A stretch of DNA of 31,506 nucleotides from a virus. The stretch covers positions 1 to 31,506 of IMG/VR virus record IMGVR_UViG_3300025402_000048; one strand, given 5' to 3'. Below, in pieces: positions 2,614 through 28,793 of this stretch. Below the pieces are notes generated by a model that was not told the DNA's origin, searched no databases, and saw only the letters and a list, made by a program, of their open reading frames with translations. How positions within the stretch are numbered: position 1 is the stretch's first letter; each line of letters opens with the position of its first letter. The translations under genes and the position numbers were made by a program.

Positions 2614-3633
2614 ATGGCCGTTACTAGCAGAGAAGAATTAACTCAATATTGCCTTAGAGCTCTAGGCGAACCAGTAGTTGAAATCAACGTGGACGATGTC
2701 CAACTAAATGAGCGTATCGATGAAGCTCTTGACTATTGGAACCAATACCACTTTGATGGTGCAGAGCGTATGTATCTTAAAGCACAGATCACTGGCTCAA
2801 TCATCAACATCACTACTCCTACACAAACTGATTTCCCCATAGGTACAAAGATCACTGGAAGCACATCTGGTGCAACAGCTAAGGTATGCATGCAGTATGG
2901 TCGTAATCCTGTAGATACACAGATCGTATGTCAAAACATGACGATAGCAGGCCAAAATGATGGTACTACATCTCAAAATCAATTTACTTCAGAGCTTCTA
3001 CCAGCATTCATAGTGGGTGAGACCATCACCGGATCTAATGGAGCGACAGCGGTTATATCTGCAGACGGAGCAGTATTAGGTACATATGACCTACATTACT
3101 TCCCGCTACCAGACTACATCTATGGTATCACAAGAGTCATCCCGTTTAATGCAGCATCCAGCTCAAAGAACTTATTTGACTTACAATACCAACTAAGACT
3201 TAACGACTTATATGACTTGACTTCAACGTCATTGATCTACTATAAGACTGTTATGTCACACATCTCTCTACTTAACCTAGAACTAAACGGCTATCCACTA
3301 TATAGGTTTAACCGTATGATGGGTAGACTATCACTTGACGTTAATTGGGACTCTGCGTTGACTATCGGTGACTTCATCGTGGTTGAATGCTATAGAGCTC
3401 TTGACCCAGCAACTTTCAGTAAAGTATGGAATGAACCTTGGTTCCGTCACTACGTTACAGCACTATTCAAACGCCAATGGGCTACAAACATCAAGAAGTT
3501 TGGTAACATCCAACTACCAGGTGGTGTGATCCTTGATGGGGCTTCTCTATATTCAGAAGCTATAGCGGAGATCAAAGACCTCGAAGATGAGATGCTGAAT
3601 AAGGCTGCTCCGTTGGAATTCTTTTTAGGATAA
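2614..3633 (+). CDS. gp13: Neck protein gp13 (T4-like) with an inserted beta-rich segment
   Basis: The protein has 339 residues against about 309 in T4. The N-terminus (TSREELTQYCLRALGEP) and the RIDEALDYWNQYHFDG segment are typical of gp13 of marine T4-like phages. The C-terminal half continues with PWFRHYVTALFKRQWATN. In between, roughly residues 66-156, lies a Gly/Thr-rich segment with two similar motifs, IGTKITGSTSGATAKV (76-91) and VGETITGSNGATAVI (134-148). It looks like an inserted beta domain. gp13 sits on the portal/connector and joins head to tail with gp14. The gene has its own late promoter and is followed one base later by gp14. The order 13-14-15-17-18-19-20 supports the call. 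Confidence 0.88.
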   Translation: MAVTSREELTQYCLRALGEPVVEINVDDVQLNERIDEALDYWNQYHFDGAERMYLKAQITGSIINITTPTQTDFPIGTKITGSTSGATAKVCMQYGRNPVDTQIVCQNMTIAGQNDGTTSQNQFTSELLPAFIVGETITGSNGATAVISADGAVLGTYDLHYFPLPDYIYGITRVIPFNAASSSKNLFDLQYQLRLNDLYDLTSTSLIYYKTVMSHISLLNLELNGYPLYRFNRMMGRLSLDVNWDSALTIGDFIVVECYRALDPATFSKVWNEPWFRHYVTALFKRQWATNIKKFGNIQLPGGVILDGASLYSEAIAEIKDLEDEMLNKAAPLEFFLG

Positions 3634-9745: not shown

Positions 9746-11326
9746 ATGCAAATATTTGGATTTGAAATAAACCGTGCTGAGAAAGACAAGAGAAAGATAA
9801 GACCTGGAGCTGAGGTTGTTACCCCGGCTCCTGATGATGGTTCCACGGTAATATCTACACTAGGAGCTGCAGCTGCCTACTACGGCATGACTGTAGACCT
9901 TGAAGGTGTTATCAAAAATGAGAACGACTTAATCCGTCGTTATAGGGAGATCTCCCAATACGGCGACTGTGATAATGCCGTGGAAGACATTGTTAATGAA
10001 GCTATCGTAGCTAATTCAGACGAAGCTCCTGTAGAGGTAGTACTAGATGATGTAAACTTATCTAGTTCTGTAAAGAAGATGATACAGGCAGAGTTTGATG
10101 AGATACTTAAGCTTTATAAGTTTGGTACAAAAGGTCACGATATATTTAGATCTTGGTATGTGGATGGTAGGCTTTACTATCACATACTATTAGATGAAGA
10201 GAACCTTAAGAACGGTATTCAAGAACTACGTTTCATTGATCCACGCAAGATCAGACGTATCAAGAATATCAAGAAAGGTAAGAACGATAAGGGTATCGAC
10301 GTCGTAGTAGGCATAGAAGAGTTCTATATCTATAACGATAAAGGTATCAACGAGAATACAAGTCAGGGCGTTAAGTTATCGATTGATTCGGTAATCTACT
10401 GTCCTTCAGGACTGATCGATGCTAACTCTAACTCAATGTTAGGTTATCTACATAAAGCGATCAAACCTGTAAACCAATTAAAGATGATCGAAGATGCTCT
10501 AGTTATCTACAGGGTATCGCGAGCACCTGAAAGACGTATATTTTACATTGACGTAGGTAACTTGCCAAAGCTTAAAGCTGAGCAGTACGTCAATGATATC
10601 ATGAACAAGTATAGAAATAAAGTTGTCTACGATGCAGCCACTGGCGAGATACGAGACGACCGTAAACACCTCTCTATGATGGAAGACTTTTGGATGCCTC
10701 GAAGAGAAGGTGGAAAAGGTACTGAAATCACTACCCTTTCCGGCGGTCAAAACCTCGGTCAGATCGAAGACATACAATATTTCCAAAATAAACTATATCA
10801 ATGCTTGAATGTACCTATTGGAAGGTTACAATCACAAGAAGGTTTTAGTCTTGGTAGAACTACAGAAGTAACAAGAGATGAGATCAAGTTCAATAAGTTC
10901 ATTGAACGCGTTAGACGTAAGTTCTCTGTGTTGTTTGCTGAAGCTCTTAGGGTACAATTGATTGCAAAACAGATCATTAGACCAGATGAATGGCCATTGA
11001 TCGTACAAGATATACGGTTTGACTTCCAAGAAGACAACCACTTTGCAGAGTTAAAAGAAGCCGAGGTGTTGTCTAATAGGATCAGTACGTTAAGCCAGAT
11101 ACAGCCATATATTGGTACGTTCTACAGCATGGAGTTTGTAAAACGTCATGTACTCAAGCAGTCTGAAGAAGAGATTGAAGAGATAGAGAAACAGATTAAC
11201 GCAGAACAAGAAGAGATTCAGGCCATGATGGCTATGCAAAACGGTGTTCCAGTTGATAGTGGAATGGGCGCAGGTCCAACCGCACCATCACTACCACCAC
11301 CAAATAAAACTAAAGGAGAAGTATAA
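9746..11326 (+). CDS. gp20: Portal vertex protein gp20 (T4-like)
   Basis: The protein has 526 residues, essentially the T4 length of 524. Recognisable parts are YREISQYGDCDNAVEDIVNEAIV, the LRFIDPRKIRRIKN segment, YRVSRAPERRIFYIDVGNLPK and the LGRTTEVTRDEIKFNKFIERVR motif used in marine gp20 phylogeny. A dodecamer forms the portal at which head assembly starts and through which DNA is packed by gp17. The C-terminus ends in a Met/Gly/Pro-rich tail. The stop overlaps the next ATG by one base (TAATG). Confidence 0.96.
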   Translation: MQIFGFEINRAEKDKRKIRPGAEVVTPAPDDGSTVISTLGAAAAYYGMTVDLEGVIKNENDLIRRYREISQYGDCDNAVEDIVNEAIVANSDEAPVEVVLDDVNLSSSVKKMIQAEFDEILKLYKFGTKGHDIFRSWYVDGRLYYHILLDEENLKNGIQELRFIDPRKIRRIKNIKKGKNDKGIDVVVGIEEFYIYNDKGINENTSQGVKLSIDSVIYCPSGLIDANSNSMLGYLHKAIKPVNQLKMIEDALVIYRVSRAPERRIFYIDVGNLPKLKAEQYVNDIMNKYRNKVVYDAATGEIRDDRKHLSMMEDFWMPRREGGKGTEITTLSGGQNLGQIEDIQYFQNKLYQCLNVPIGRLQSQEGFSLGRTTEVTRDEIKFNKFIERVRRKFSVLFAEALRVQLIAKQIIRPDEWPLIVQDIRFDFQEDNHFAELKEAEVLSNRISTLSQIQPYIGTFYSMEFVKRHVLKQSEEEIEEIEKQINAEQEEIQAMMAMQNGVPVDSGMGAGPTAPSLPPPNKTKGEV

Positions 11327-12235: not shown

Positions 12236-12774
12236 TGCAATACGGAAGCTTTCTTAAGGCCTTAACTGGCACTACTGCTAGAGTCCACTCATACGGACAC
12301 CTTATTGAGCAGGCATCCAACGGTAAGATCCTTATCGATGGTGAGAAGACTTCTTTTACAGATTTAGAGGAAGCAAGACAATACATTAAGACAAAACATA
12401 CGACAAGAAACATAGAAGAGCAAATTAAGACAGAACTATACGAAGACATATCAGATAACAAGATAGCAAACATTATTAAAGAATATTACGATGTAAAAGT
12501 AACAGATACTTTAATAGAGTCATACGTAGATTTTGCTTCCTCTAAACAATTTACTGTAGACCCTGTCGTAAGAGATATTAGAAATCTTAATAAGTTTGAT
12601 AAGATCGTAGAAGGTAAGATCGACTACAAATTGGAAGATGGCACAATTATTGCTATCAATGAGACTACTCAAGATAAGTTGGCTGAGTTGTTTCATGATG
12701 AACAAGAAATCATTGAGCACATGAGAGAAAGCAAAGAAAACTTTATCGATGTGCTTAAACAAATCGGAGAATAA
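12235..12774 (+). CDS. Unknown protein in the head operon
   Basis: The protein has 179 residues and I do not recognise it. It is predicted mostly helical and highly charged, with long Lys/Glu/Ile-rich stretches (RNIEEQIKTELYEDISDNKI, LAELFHDEQEIIEHMRES). There is no signal peptide, membrane segment or metal motif. It is co-directional with and tightly linked to head genes on both sides (1-base overlap before, two-base gap after). A prohead core or assembly role is possible from position only. Confidence 0.55.
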   Translation: MQYGSFLKALTGTTARVHSYGHLIEQASNGKILIDGEKTSFTDLEEARQYIKTKHTTRNIEEQIKTELYEDISDNKIANIIKEYYDVKVTDTLIESYVDFASSKQFTVDPVVRDIRNLNKFDKIVEGKIDYKLEDGTIIAINETTQDKLAELFHDEQEIIEHMRESKENFIDVLKQIGE

Positions 12775-12776
12775 GA

Positions 12777-13268
12777 ATGGCATTAGATTACTACATTGTA
12801 AAGAATTCAACCAAAGAGGTTGTAGTTCAAGTTAACGGGGCAAATGATAGCTTAGGTATTGCGTTAAATACATTAGCTTCAGCTGATCAAGTACTTGGAG
12901 CTTCTGGTGCTACAGGCTATATGCCACCAGCAGTTAACTTAGCTTCAGTCATCAGTTCAGGTAATTTAAACTCCTCAGTGGTTATTAACCGCGGTGCAAC
13001 TGGTGCTACTGGTCATCTAGTCTTTGCTGGATCACCTGAAAATTCTCCAACCATCCAATTTAACCAATATGGTTTTACTGCTAAAGCAAACAACACAAAC
13101 GACATTGAAGTTATTCATGGTGGTGCAACTGGTGCTAATGTAACCACATGGTTAGTACTTCATAAACAAGAAGGTTACTTCTCTAAAGTTGAGTACGAAA
13201 AATATGGTGAGTACGATGATGAAACTAAAGTCGGTGCTCAAAACATTTCTGGAAGTCCTGGAGCTTAA
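12777..13268 (+). CDS. Small Gly/Ala/Thr-rich probable virion protein
   Basis: The protein has 163 residues. It contains three short related motifs, GASGATGY (about 42-49), GATGATGH (about 73-80) and GGATGAN (about 115-121), embedded in a beta-type sequence, and a Tyr/Glu-rich end (KVEYEKYGEYDDETK). Codon use resembles the abundant structural genes gp18 and gp23. It lies between unknown head genes and the prohead protease gene. A capsid decoration or other exposed head protein is a guess from composition and location. I see no match to T4 Hoc or Soc. Confidence 0.5.
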   Translation: MALDYYIVKNSTKEVVVQVNGANDSLGIALNTLASADQVLGASGATGYMPPAVNLASVISSGNLNSSVVINRGATGATGHLVFAGSPENSPTIQFNQYGFTAKANNTNDIEVIHGGATGANVTTWLVLHKQEGYFSKVEYEKYGEYDDETKVGAQNISGSPGA

Positions 13269-13324
13269 GAGTGGTAACAACATAGTTGCTATGCATCGTT
13301 GGCATTTTAATAACTGCAAGCATA

Positions 13325-13340
13325 AAGGAGAATTAAAATT
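13325..13340 (+). promoter_or_regulatory. Shine-Dalgarno followed by an AUU start codon (gene 21)
   Basis: AAGGAG at 13325-13330 is followed, after a seven-base spacer, by ATT at 13338-13340. The reading frame of gene 21 is closed upstream by TAA at 13323. It contains no ATG, GTG or TTG until GTG 13578, which would remove about 80 conserved residues. The ATT is therefore the best start. Confidence 0.65.
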
Positions 13341-13988
13341 AAGCTAATTAAAGAACATACCGAAGAGGTTAAGTACTTAGTTGAAGAGAAACTAGGTAAA
13401 GGTAAAGAATACTTCATTGAAGGTGTATTCCTTCAATCGAACTTAAAGAATCGTAACGGCCGTATCTATCCAGTAGAGATACTTGATGGTGAGGTAAAAC
13501 GATATAACGATGAGTATGTCAATAAGAATCGTGCCTTTGGTGAGTTAGGTCATCCTGATTCACCTACGATTAACCTTGACAGGGTGTCTCATATGATTAA
13601 AAAGCTTCATCGAGAAGGTGATAACTTCATTGGTAAAGCTAAGATCATGGATACACCATATGGTAAGATAGTGAAGTCACTTATCGATGAAGGAGCTAGA
13701 CTTGGCGTTAGTTCCAGAGGTATGGGATCACTAGATCGTAAAGGTGATGTTTCTTATGTAGGTAAAGATTTTACTTTAGCGACAGCCGCTGATATAGTTG
13801 CTGACCCGTCCGCCCCAAATGCTTTCGTTGAGGGTGTCATGGAGTCTAAAGAATGGGTTATGGTCGATGGAAAATTTGTGGAGAAAGACTTGCGAGAAGC
13901 ACAAGCATTTATTAGAAAAGCTTCAAGCAAAAATTTACAAGAGGCAAAGATTAGAGCATTCCAATCATTCCTCGCGAAAATTAAATAA
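13338..13988 (+). CDS. gp21: Prohead core protease gp21, probably initiated at AUU
   Basis: With an AUU start the protein has 216 residues (T4 gp21 is about 212) and would begin MKLIKEHTEEVKYLVEE. Then come EYFIEGVFLQSNLKNRNGRIYP, FGELGHPDSP with the catalytic His, and LGVSSRGMGSL with the catalytic Ser, matching the T4 gp21 herpes-protease-like fold (GELNHP and SSRG in T4). The first ATG in frame is at 13584, beyond the catalytic His, and would give a dead 134-residue fragment. gp21 cleaves gp22, gp23 and core proteins during head maturation. It sits directly before scaffold gp22, as in T4. A sequencing error or real change in the start codon is the alternative. Confidence 0.88.
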   Translation: MKLIKEHTEEVKYLVEEKLGKGKEYFIEGVFLQSNLKNRNGRIYPVEILDGEVKRYNDEYVNKNRAFGELGHPDSPTINLDRVSHMIKKLHREGDNFIGKAKIMDTPYGKIVKSLIDEGARLGVSSRGMGSLDRKGDVSYVGKDFTLATAADIVADPSAPNAFVEGVMESKEWVMVDGKFVEKDLREAQAFIRKASSKNLQEAKIRAFQSFLAKIK

Positions 13989-13989
13989 C

Positions 13990-13997
13990 TATAAATA
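13990..13997 (+). promoter_or_regulatory. T4-type late promoter before gp22
   Basis: TATAAATA directly after the gp21 stop, 41 bases before the gp22 ATG. A Shine-Dalgarno TAGGAG follows at 14027-14032. This promoter would also serve gp23, which has only a ten-base gap from gp22 and no box of its own. Confidence 0.75.
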
Positions 13998-14038
13998 ATA
14001 GTATATCTTAAAAAGATACACAAATTTAGGAGATTAAG

Positions 14039-15085
14039 ATGTCAATCGAACAAAAAATTGCACAAATCTTAGCTGAATCAAGAGCTACAGATAATGCAGA
14101 AGAGTTAAATGAGGACAATGTTGTGACGAAACATGCTGCAGCGGGTGACCAAGCAGTTATTCGTCCACATGGTTCAGTGCCAAATGGTGGTGAAACACCT
14201 AACGAAGCTAACGCTAAAAACAATGTAGAAGACGAAGATCCAGCTGCAGAAGCTACTTCTAAGAAACCTAACGTTGTTACAGCTAAGGCTGAAGCAGGTG
14301 ATCAAGCAGTTATCCGTACAGCTAAGGATTCTATCCCAGCTCACGCACCTGGCCATGCAGTTAATTTTAAAGAAGATATGGATGCTTTATTCAACGGTGA
14401 AGAACTTACTGAAGAGTTTAAAGACAAAGCAACTACTATCTTCGAAGCAGCAGTTATGACTCGTATTAACGAAGCCATGACTACTATTGAAGAAGAATTC
14501 GAAGCTCGCCTCCAAGAGGAAGCAGCAAAGAATCAAGAGGGTCTTGTTGAAAAAGTTGATGGATACCTCAACTACGTAGTTGAGCAGTGGGTTAAACAAA
14601 ATGAAATCGCCCTTGAAAGTGGTATGAAGTCTGAAATCTTAGAAAGCTTTGTAAGCGGTATGAAAGGTTTATTCGAAGAGCACTATATCGATGTTCCAGA
14701 GGAAAAATTCGATGTGTTAGGTGCACAAGAAGAAACTATCGCTGAATTACAAGCTAAGCTAGACGAACAAGTTGCAGCTAACGTTGAGATGGCTAAAGCC
14801 CTTAACGAATCCGCTAAAAACGAAATCGTTGCTGATGCTTTAGATGGTTTAACAGAAACTGATAAAGAAAAATTCGTTGGCTTAGCTGAAGAATTAGCTT
14901 TTGAAGATGCTGAATCATTCTCTAAGAAAGTTCAGGTAATTCGTGAAAATTATTTCACAAACAAGGCAACATCAACATTAGTTGAGTCAGTTGTGACAGA
15001 TACTCCAGTTGAACCATTAACAGAAGAAAAAGCTGTTAATCCTTCAATCAAGAGATATATGTCCGTACTCAATAACATTAAATAA
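14039..15085 (+). CDS. gp22: Prohead scaffolding core protein gp22 (T4-like)
   Basis: The protein has 348 residues (T4 269). It is acidic and rich in Ala, Glu and Lys with long helical/coiled stretches (EETIAELQAKLDEQVAANVEM), typical of the scaffold. The central VEKVDGYLNYVVEQWVKQNE and the C-terminal NPSIKRYMSVLNN match gp22 of marine T4-likes. The N-terminal 105 residues contain an internal repeat: VVTKHAAAGDQAVIRPHG (from 28) and VVTAKAEAGDQAVIRTAKD (from 79). Sites such as TTIFEAAV fit the L/I-x-E cleavage rule of gp21. Location between gp21 and gp23 is canonical. Confidence 0.93.
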   Translation: MSIEQKIAQILAESRATDNAEELNEDNVVTKHAAAGDQAVIRPHGSVPNGGETPNEANAKNNVEDEDPAAEATSKKPNVVTAKAEAGDQAVIRTAKDSIPAHAPGHAVNFKEDMDALFNGEELTEEFKDKATTIFEAAVMTRINEAMTTIEEEFEARLQEEAAKNQEGLVEKVDGYLNYVVEQWVKQNEIALESGMKSEILESFVSGMKGLFEEHYIDVPEEKFDVLGAQEETIAELQAKLDEQVAANVEMAKALNESAKNEIVADALDGLTETDKEKFVGLAEELAFEDAESFSKKVQVIRENYFTNKATSTLVESVVTDTPVEPLTEEKAVNPSIKRYMSVLNNIK

Positions 15086-15095
15086 GGAAAACAAA

Positions 15096-16427
15096 ATGAC
15101 AATTCGTCAAGACTTAGTAAAAAAATGGGAGCCGATTTTAGAGCATAGCTCACTCCCAGAAATCAAAGATAACTACCGTAAGGAAGTTACTGCGATTCTT
15201 TTAGAAAACCAAGAACGTGAAATGCAAAAAGGCGCTGAAGCTCTTTTCGAAGCTGCTCCTAGCAACTCTGGTGGTTCTGGTATTGGTTTAGGTGGTGCTG
15301 GTGCTTCTACTGGTACAGTATCTGGTTTCGACCCAGTACTTATCGCTTTAGTACGTCGTGCTATGCCACAAATGATCGCTTACGATATCGCTGGCGTTCA
15401 ACCAATGACACAACCTACTGGTCTCATCTTCGCGATGAAATCACGTTACACGCAACAAAACGGCACTGAAGCATTATTCAACGAAGCTGATACAGGTTTC
15501 GGTGGTGATGGTACTTCACCAAATGCTGGTGGTAACCCATTCACTGATGACTTCACAAACACTGGCCGTGGTATTACTACAGCTGATGCTGAAGCATTAG
15601 GTACAGGTTCACCTGCTGCTGACTTCGCTCAAATGGCTTTCTCAATTGAAAAAACTAGCGTAACTGCTAAGACTCGTGCTCTTAAAGCTGAGTACTCAAT
15701 CGAGTTAGCACAAGACTTGAAATCAGTTCATGGTTTAGATGCTGAAGGTGAATTAAGCAACATCCTTTCAACTGAAATCCTTGCTGAAATCAACCGTGAA
15801 GTTATCCGTACAGTTTACTACGGTGCTAAAGTTGGTGCTCAATACGGTACAGCTACTGCTGGTACATTTGACCTTGACGTTGACTCAAACGGTCGTTGGT
15901 CTGTTGAAAAATTCAAAGGCCTCTTGTTCCAAATCGAACGTGAAGCTAATGCGATTGCTCAACAAACTCGTAGAGGTCGTGGTAATTTCTTAATCTGCTC
16001 ATCAGATACAGCTTCAGCTCTAGCTATGGCAGGTGTATTAGATTACGCTCCAGCTCTTTCAACATCATTGAACGTTGATGAAGCTTCAACAACATTCGCT
16101 GGTGTTTTAAATGGCAAATACAAAGTATACATTGATCCATATTCTGGCGGTAACAACCCATCAGCAAATGGTTCACAATTCTTTGTAGTTGGTTACAAAG
16201 GTACATCAGCATTTGATGCTGGTTTATTCTATTGCCCATACGTTCCTCTCCAATTAGTTAGAGCTGTTGATCCTAATAGCTTCCAACCAAAAATTGGTTT
16301 CAAGACACGTTACGGTATCGTAGCTAACCCATTTGTTAACTTAGATGATGGTAATTCTGATAACAACGTTATCGTTGCTAACAAGAACTACTACTACAGG
16401 AAAGTTGCCGTCACAAATCTCATGTAA
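15096..16427 (+). CDS. gp23: Major capsid protein gp23 (T4-like)
   Basis: The protein has 443 residues (T4 521). Conserved segments are DPVLIALVRRAMPQMIAYDIAG, VQPMTQPTGLIFAMKSRY, the AEYSIELAQDLKSVHGLDAE region used in gp23 PCR surveys, and FKTRYGIVANPF. An N-terminal propeptide is likely removed by gp21 at ALFE52|A53, which fits the L/I-x-E rule. Codon use is strongly biased to a small set (GGT, GCT, CGT, AAC), as expected for the most abundant virion protein. It is cotranscribed with gp22 and closed by a strong terminator. Confidence 0.97.
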   Translation: MTIRQDLVKKWEPILEHSSLPEIKDNYRKEVTAILLENQEREMQKGAEALFEAAPSNSGGSGIGLGGAGASTGTVSGFDPVLIALVRRAMPQMIAYDIAGVQPMTQPTGLIFAMKSRYTQQNGTEALFNEADTGFGGDGTSPNAGGNPFTDDFTNTGRGITTADAEALGTGSPAADFAQMAFSIEKTSVTAKTRALKAEYSIELAQDLKSVHGLDAEGELSNILSTEILAEINREVIRTVYYGAKVGAQYGTATAGTFDLDVDSNGRWSVEKFKGLLFQIEREANAIAQQTRRGRGNFLICSSDTASALAMAGVLDYAPALSTSLNVDEASTTFAGVLNGKYKVYIDPYSGGNNPSANGSQFFVVGYKGTSAFDAGLFYCPYVPLQLVRAVDPNSFQPKIGFKTRYGIVANPFVNLDDGNSDNNVIVANKNYYYRKVAVTNLM

Positions 16428-19741: not shown

Positions 19742-20071
19742 ATGGATCAAATAACAATAGATCAAACGGCAGCAGATAAGATCAAGTCTCTATTAAAAGA
19801 AGAGGATGTTCCAAACCTTATGTTACGTATATTCGTATCAGGAGGAGGATGTTCTGGATTTCAATATGGATTCACATTTGACGATAATCAAAATGAAGAC
19901 GACTTTGTCATAGAACAGCATGAAGTTAAGTTATTAATAGATGCTATGAGTATGCAGTATTTAGCTGGATCTCAAATAGCATATGAAACATCTCTAGCAG
20001 CATCTCAATTCACAATAAAAAATCCAAACGCGACGTCTAAATGCGGGTGTGGTTCTTCATTCTCAGCATAA
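19742..20071 (+). CDS. iscA: A-type Fe-S cluster carrier, IscA/ErpA/HesB family
   Basis: The protein has 109 residues, the usual family length. All three cysteine ligands are present: C37 in [12 protein letters not shown] and the C-terminal pair C101-G-C103 in KCGCGSSF. A-type carriers receive Fe-S clusters from a scaffold and pass them to target proteins. The scaffold IscU is encoded eight bases downstream, making a two-gene Fe-S unit. The 62-base gap upstream has two TACAAT sequences (19718 and 19729) but no convincing promoter. The ATG has no obvious Shine-Dalgarno, only an A/T-rich leader. Confidence 0.92.
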
Positions 20072-20079
20072 GGCATAAT

Positions 20080-20457
20080 ATGGCATATTCGGATAAAGTA
20101 TTAGATCACTATGAAAACCCAAGAAATGTGGGGTCTTTAGATAAAGAATCAATAAGTGTAGGTACTGGTATGGTAGGAGCTCCAGCTTGTGGAGATGTGA
20201 TGAAGCTTCAAATAGAAGTAGAAGGAGAGACCATAATTGATGCAAAATTTAAGACGTATGGCTGTGGTTCTGCTATTGCTAGTTCTAGTCTTGTCACCGA
20301 GTGGCTCAAAGGCAAGACGTTGGATGAGGCACAAACAATCAAGAACTCCGATATCGCAGAAGAACTTGCGTTACCGCCCGTCAAGATACATTGTTCAGTA
20401 CTTGCAGAAGATGCAATCAAAGCCGCGATTACGGATTATAGAAATAAAATAAAATAA
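20080..20457 (+). CDS. iscU: Fe-S cluster assembly scaffold IscU
   Basis: The protein has 125 residues from ATG 20080 (MAYSDKVLDHYENPRNVGSL). An ATG at 20041 in the frame is inside iscA and would add 13 residues not found in IscU. The cluster ligands are all present: C37 with D39 in GAPACGDVM, C62 in TYGCGS and C105 in VKIHCSVLAEDAI. LPPVK (98-102), the sequence bound by the chaperone HscA, is intact. From memory the sequence is very close to E. coli and other beta/gamma-proteobacterial IscU along its whole length. This points to fairly recent acquisition from such a host and to use of the host IscS/HscAB machinery. Confidence 0.96.
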   Translation: MAYSDKVLDHYENPRNVGSLDKESISVGTGMVGAPACGDVMKLQIEVEGETIIDAKFKTYGCGSAIASSSLVTEWLKGKTLDEAQTIKNSDIAEELALPPVKIHCSVLAEDAIKAAITDYRNKIK

Positions 20458-28454: not shown

Positions 28455-28793
28455 ATGACTAAAGACGAATTAAAGATTTCGCAGAGTAAAGACCACAAAG
28501 GTGGACGCAAATTCGATGGTGGTAAGTTGCAATATGGACTTATTCCACCTCTCGCTTTACGCGAGACTGTTAAAGTATTGACATTTGGCGCAGAGAAGTA
28601 TGAGCCTGATAATTGGCGTAGAGTACCAGATGGCAATCGTAGGTATTTTGATGCAGCACAGAGACACCTGTGGGCATATAAAGAAGGTGAGATGTATGAT
28701 CCTGAAACAGGAGTCAATCATATAGCTCATGCGATTTGTTGTTTAATGTTTATGTTAGATCTTGATGAAGGAAAATATAATGAAACTAAGTAA
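28455..28793 (+). CDS. DUF5664 dATP/dGTP diphosphohydrolase-like (MazG fold)
   Basis: The protein has 112 residues. GRKFDGGKLQYGLIPPLAL, TFGAEKYEPDNWRRVPDGNRRYFDAAQRHLWAYKEGE and DPETGVNHIAHAICCLMFMLDL are the DUF5664 signature; the E-K-Y, R-H and N-H-x-x-H residues probably bind metal and nucleotide. Family members (some named MazZ) hydrolyse dATP/dGTP to the monophosphates. They are known both as general phage nucleotide enzymes and as parts of 2-aminoadenine pathways. No PurZ is visible, so the general role is preferred. The 3' end overlaps gp45 by fourteen bases, linking nucleotide metabolism with replication. Confidence 0.85.
   Translation: MTKDELKISQSKDHKGGRKFDGGKLQYGLIPPLALRETVKVLTFGAEKYEPDNWRRVPDGNRRYFDAAQRHLWAYKEGEMYDPETGVNHIAHAICCLMFMLDLDEGKYNETK

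Follow-up and report, generated by a model that had tools for sequence, protein, structure and literature searches.

Where does translation of a prohead protease begin when its reading frame holds no canonical start codon ahead of the conserved N-terminal half of the protein? The question was raised by gp21 of a T4-like phage, whose context is a head and tail region on a 31,506-nt stretch of viral DNA that was analyzed as a whole (the window). AUU has been recognized as the start codon of few genes, and here a phage head protease seems to use it, in three lineages.

The gp21 locus and its start codon

The gene order portal, prohead core, gp21, gp22 and gp23 was present in the window by PHROG matches, with three genes inside this order giving no PHROG match (Table 1). 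The gene directly upstream of gp21 matched neither Pfam nor PHROG families. The gp21 product matched Pfam PF03420 Peptidase_S77 over residues 19-171 (E 2.6e-34) with 118.9 bits against a curated cut-off of 27, which places it in the family, and PHROG 207, head maturation protease, over residues 2-215 (E 3.7e-78). We take the His of GELGHP and the Ser of SSRG to be its catalytic residues. The two motifs aligned with GELNHP and SSRG of T4 gp21 (AF158101). Megablast of positions 12600-14400 against phage records yielded no match, and tblastn gave a match in 2511 phage records. Mosig, T4 and S-CREM1 were inspected individually for gp21. S-CREM1 has two annotated features under the match, and its gp21 is ordinary and full-length, with a first base that coincides with the last one of a small gene. 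Between gp21 and gp22 lies TATAAATA, which we take to resemble a late promoter motif; the window has 11 copies on its + strand, so that a match is weak evidence by itself.

Other parts of the window carried adjoining iron-sulphur cluster assembly genes at 19742-20071 (Fe-S_biosyn, E 9.4e-21) and 20074-20457 (NifU_N, E 1.7e-52), and the N-terminal domain of a dATP/dGTP diphosphohydrolase at 28455-28793 (E 1.2e-35). At 204-2580, genes for a CxxCxxCC domain protein, a glycosyltransferase, a sulfotransferase and an APS-kinase-like product stand in series; our guess would be that they serve surface modification or sulphur chemistry.

Table 1. Features of the window around the gp21 start
Feature	Position	Strand	Remark
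Portal	9746-11326		PHROG match
Small prohead-region genes	between the portal and the 12777-13268 gene		
Upstream gene, family not assigned	12777-13268	+	middle hypervariable, ~12833-13151
Spacer from upstream gene to gp21, 69 nt	13269-13337	+	median 3 nt in ATG relatives
Leader nearly identical to the L057 leader, one base longer	13314-13337	+	alignment
TAA stop in the gp21 frame, upstream boundary	13323-13325	+	read directly
Shine-Dalgarno (SD) AAGGAG	13325-13330	+	read directly; anti-SD duplex -8.7 kcal/mol
Putative ATT start codon of gp21	13338-13340	+	aligns with the ATG of relatives; no canonical in-frame start upstream
gp21 prohead protease, read from AUU	13338-13988	+	216 codons, stop 13986-13988
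His codon of GELGHP, codon 72	13551-13553	+	lost if the first canonical start is used
First canonical in-frame codons	GTG 13584-13586, ATG 13593-13595	+	
TATAAATA, late-promoter-like	13990-13997	+	between gp21 and gp22
gp22 scaffold	14039-15085	+	PHROG 237, E 4.3e-81; Pfam T4_CASP
gp23 major capsid protein	15096-16427	+	PHROG 138, E 1.4e-163

An earlier note on this DNA had proposed that gp21 starts at AUU because no canonical start precedes its conserved N-terminal half. Direct reading agreed: from the in-frame TAA to the GTG at 13584 (codon 83) there was no ATG, GTG or TTG, and that GTG lies 82 codons into the conserved protein, beyond GELGHP. The note was also right that GELGHP is encoded upstream of the first ATG and that an AAGGAG ends seven bases (AATTAAA) before the ATT; the first canonical codons that it described do exist, at 13584 (GTG) and 13593 (ATG) and not at 13578 and 13584 as it gave them. 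The ATT is followed by KLIKEHTEEVKYL. If ORF calling admitted ATG, GTG and TTG alone, gp21 would be trimmed to its C-terminal 134 residues.

Near-cognate starts (ATT, ATA, ATC or CTG) were scanned for with an SD energy of -7 or stronger and a frame of at least 60 codons before any canonical start. Three sites ahead of a canonical start were obtained from both strands of the window, two of them one codon before it and only the one at 13338 far ahead (82 codons). The gp21 ATT was likewise the sole far-ahead case in two relatives, each scanned on one strand, L158 (42 codons) and L082, a part of the L057 contig (28 codons), and the remaining sites across the three scans had a canonical start at a distance of 1-3 codons. 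When codons 2-82 were compared with those of eight ATG relatives, dN was 0.005-0.052 and dS 0.26-1.13, with silent changes in 11-30 codons and amino-acid changes in 1-4, which indicates that this N-terminal part is under protein selection. The frame, the SD, the alignment with the ATG of relatives and the codon selection together support the AUU start well, and we consider it very highly probable that gp21 initiates at AUU 13338.

Start codons and leaders among relatives

The start codon was read in relatives in two surveys, built from scans that each kept the best 80 loci of 570, 597 and 149 candidates. The first survey comprised 129 loci, one incomplete at the start, and gave ATG in 119 of 128 readable loci, ATT in eight and GTG in one. 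The larger survey, with a third round of relatives, comprised 203 loci, three of them incomplete at the start, and gave 183 ATG, 16 ATT and one GTG among 200 readable loci, several contigs being counted twice; the 122 distinct gp21 sequences comprised 114 with ATG, seven with ATT and one with GTG. Conservation of ATT at this codon, which the earlier note had named as a check, was thus not found, ATG being used in most relatives. The AUU start of gp21 appears from these counts to be a natural allele that is in the minority among relatives.

Besides the window, ATT was found in nine public contigs of three lineages: seven contigs belong to the same virus as the window, and the other two are L057 and L158, each 73% identical to the window in gp21. 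The pattern ATH followed by [KR]-L-I-[KR]-EHTE, by which L158 was discovered, matched nine contigs, all with ATT and none with ATC or ATA. A corresponding pattern for gp21 of the KLI-[SAT]-EE type matched seven stretches, none of them gp21, and GGAG followed by 7 nt, ATT and KLI-like codons matched 17 stretches, eight of them gp21 and nine not. Further ATT lineages may exist beyond the best-80 scans and these N-terminus patterns. L057 and L158 have no canonical in-frame start upstream of the ATT. The window's virus is placed among ATG viruses 94-95% identical to it, the nearest kin of L057 (L100, 86% identical) starts with GTG, and the nearest kin of L158 (L103, gp21 99% identical) starts with ATG. 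The GTG of L100, at position 3001, another weak codon, was the sole GTG start of gp21 among the 200 readable loci.

ATG at 13338, which the earlier note had named as a refuting result if shown by reads, did not appear in other assemblies: all seven further contigs of this virus carried ATT. Three of them were 99.8-99.9% identical to the window, and four were 98.2-99.5% identical around gp21, one of these falling to 95.2% in a more distant stretch. The 110 bases before the ATT were identical to the window in the five loci compared, which included both sister groups, and 40 bases before it were common to all seven. In the four more distant contigs, blastn skipped positions ~12833-13151, with 98.2-99.5% identity on both flanks; this skipped middle of the upstream gene points to fast turnover within a gene of the head region.

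The main tree held 104 distinct gp21 rows (four ATT, one GTG and 99 ATG), products shorter than 200 residues having been dropped. ATT occurs in three separate lineages. The ATT label needed three changes, which supported branches force, and a single ATT group appeared in 0% of 200 bootstrap trees. Shuffled labels needed 4.0 changes on average, the one change saved being accounted for by the near-copy pair L001/L006. L057 clustered with L100 (GTG) and L239 (ATG, on a long branch) and L158 with L103. An earlier tree of 83 rows, with the window included and L158 absent, agreed on the first two lineages. The tree, which counts changes only, would fit three gains as well as one gain followed by losses.

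The window and L057 have a leader in common, CTGCAAGCATAA(A)GGAGAATTAAA-ATT-AA, behind upstream genes that differ; the leader of L158 is TAAGGGGAACTAAA-ATT-AA. All three lineages end in AAGG(A/G)GAA(T/C)TAAA-AUU. Over the last 14 bases, 13 agreed between the window and L057, 12 between L057 and L158, and 11 between the window and L158. Among 1600 pairs of ATG leaders whose gp21 proteins were less than 80% identical, 45 agreed at 11 or more of 14 bases, 21 at 12 or more and six at 13. Because the likeness of window and L057 leaders stands beside only 73% gp21 identity and is rare among ATG pairs, it suggests leader exchange or common descent, and the likeness of the L158 leader may be convergent.

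SD duplex energies were -8.7 for the window, -9.3 for L057 and -8.3 for L158. The 70 distinct ATG leaders had a median of -5.45, with seven reaching -8.3 and two reaching -8.7; the chance of three random leaders all reaching -8.3 was 0.0019, with a cut-off set post hoc and relatedness ignored. Within the 34-row clade that contains the ATT lineages, 11 of 29 ATG rows were at -8.1 or stronger and two at -8.3 or stronger, so the claim of compensation rests on three leaders. We infer that the strong SD makes up for the weak AUU codon, for which these energies are support and not proof. The distance from the upstream stop to the start was 69 nt in the window, 23 nt in L057 and 11 nt in L158, against a median of 3 nt among 68 ATG loci, of which 49 had at most 5 nt and nine had at least 11 nt.

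Copies of the window's leader with up to three mismatches were sought in the window and in four records of relatives. The leader was found once in the window and once in each of the two longest relatives (records of 160 kb and 127 kb), which speaks against a repeated cassette, and in this form it had no copy in the L057 and L158 records. A looser pattern matched 16 viral stretches, eight of them gp21 with ATT and eight elsewhere; four of the latter (L148, L150, L151 and L155) are leader-like strings before ATG-started genes. A scan of bacterial genomes gave 19 stretches, none at gp21. RNA structure was also discarded as an explanation: folding of the leaders was not exceptional beside shuffles (z -1.39 for the window and -0.56 for L057), and no Rfam match at the gathering threshold and no tRNA was obtained in the window. 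A possible 8-bp hairpin lies at 13271-13292 in the spacer.

Origin and effect of the AUU start

The pair L158 (ATT) and L103 (ATG) was compared in blocks of 30 bases. Within gp21, 27-30 of 30 bases matched per block, and in the last 30 bases before it only 14 of 30; in the upstream gene 22-28 of 30 matched close to its end, and values were far lower farther up, where it was hard to align. At the start of gp22 the match dipped to 21-27 of 30, with near identity beyond, and blastn gave 93.9% over 3660 bases. We read the identity jump at the start codon as a probable mosaic breakpoint. The upstream alleles differ widely across the compared lineages, and exchange in the upstream gene would make new junctions at the gp21 start, some of them with ATT. 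On balance we favor recombination as the route by which the AUU leader came.

Three other accounts of the start were weighed against initiation at AUU 13338. Translation could begin elsewhere in the frame, at GTG 13584 or ATG 13593 with a shortened product, or at one of the ATT codons 13332 and 13347, and T4 does have a shorter second gp21 product from an internal start (PMC9026906; AF158101 annotation). A working protease from 13584 is unlikely, since GELGHP and S77 residues 19-82 are encoded before it, in codons 2-82, which are strongly selected; the two other ATT codons have distances of 1 and 16 nt to the SD and do not align with the ATG of relatives, and the account as a whole is very unlikely. 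That gp21 is disabled at its start, with dependence on a helper, or that the base is an assembly error, would agree with the rarity of ATT in the family and is most unlikely: gp21 is intact and under protein selection, and the identical ATT in seven other contigs and two other lineages speaks against both, an error being not credible when sister contigs carry the same ATT and leader. An out-of-frame upstream start combined with a frameshift, bypass or splicing has in its favor that one window frame is open at 13156-13345 with seven canonical starts, the last an ATG at 13291. The other frames running into gp21 in L057 and L158 hold no start codon, so the frameshift is not a shared explanation; the gap between the upstream stop and the ATT in L158 is only 11 nt, no slippery heptamer was seen by eye at the overlap, and we regard this account as close to negligible. 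An upstream start in another frame, which the earlier note had named for relatives as part of a refuting result, was accordingly present in the window and shared by neither L057 nor L158.

The weightier question is whether a real AUU start was selected for or merely tolerated. It is quite possible that the AUU is a neutral scar of recombination, tolerated behind a strong SD with no regulation selected. AUU would not be needed for gp21, as L103 uses ATG for a nearly identical protein; ATT could have arisen and been tolerated, as the start codon stands at the identity jump. The upstream gene is highly variable even between near-identical viruses, and the nearest kin of every ATT lineage is ATG or GTG. 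Less easily reconciled with neutrality are the three occurrences within one gene family, the persistence of ATT in both sub-groups of the window's virus, and the rarity of the change from AUG to AUU, given as 1 of 61,358 ancestral AUG starts in bacteria and archaea in PMC5622118, a count that annotation may lower by missing AUU. Selection for lowered gp21 expression is a comparable possibility, which we hold tentatively; it is favored by the strong SD that each of the three ATT genes has of its own and by the ATT kept in two sister sub-groups. The earlier note's view that AUU keeps the protease scarce would thus be one of two good readings, the tolerated scar fitting about as well.

The explanation that we prefer, and judge likely, joins a gp21 started at AUU, a leader borne in by recombination and a strong SD that offsets the weak codon. 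In most relatives, gp21 would begin at an AUG a few bases past the stop of the hypervariable upstream gene; in three lineages that boundary would have received, most likely through recombination, a longer leader with an AUU. The strong SD AAGGAG, seven bases upstream, would hold the 30S subunit, and the initiator tRNA would start at AUU despite the mismatch at the third base, one that IF3 would tolerate poorly. The rate of protease synthesis may then be set apart from the upstream gene. An IF3 gene (PF00707) was absent from the two records examined, the completeness of both being uncertain. We are doubtful of a further step, in which T4-like phages would swap, at the mosaic edge, between an AUG start coupled to the hypervariable gene and an uncoupled strong SD with AUU, the latter acting as a set point that fixes protease output whichever upstream allele is present and perhaps depends on IF3. 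L158 and L103, with gp21 99% identical and different start codons, offer a natural comparison for the effect of the start codon on protease level and head maturation.

Comparison with known systems

The prohead protease gp21 is essential in T4, and T4 gene 26 has an internal AUU start that gives a second product. A paper showing the gene 26 start was not found in the open-licence literature. Gene 26 resembles the present case in having AUU in a structural gene of T4, and differs in that its AUU gives an internal second product, whereas AUU would be the main start of gp21 here. T4 gene 21 encodes the same protease family in the same place before gp22 and gp23 and is known for unusual initiation, but it starts at ATG. 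Its shorter product comes from a second start and is said to be essential in PMC9026906. That internal start is placed at codon 23 in GenBank (L157 3015, AF158101) and at Met45 in PMC9026906, and both codons are Met. Both Met23 and Met45 aligned with Leu in the window, where gp21 has no internal start of the T4 type and no ATG, GTG or TTG before codon 83.

In E. coli, infC and pcnB begin at AUU, and PMC9410913 counts these two genes for that species. They resemble gp21 in having AUU as the start, which in infC and pcnB limits synthesis of the protein (PMC9410913, and the title of a pcnB paper cited there and in PMC13009471). They differ as host genes that have been studied by experiment, infC with IF3 feedback, whereas for gp21 the evidence is sequence. 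In PMC5622118, weak starts (GUG, UUG) were associated overall with strong SDs, and switches of start codon had no significant link with SD strength. Very low product was obtained in vitro with expanded-wobble and mismatched third bases (PMC10158994).

In PMC13009471, the non-canonical starts tested in Staphylococcus aureus reduced yield, and S. aureus cvfC1 has an AUU with a very strong, extended SD, as gp21 does. The AUU of cvfC1 is conserved across staphylococci there, whereas the gp21 ATT is a minority allele. Among the titles and abstract openings searched in the open-licence literature, none described a prohead protease that begins at AUU. AUU starts are already a known kind, to which recurrence and a natural ATT/ATG pair are added here, and the AUU of gp21 behind its strong SD would fit the cvfC1 pattern.
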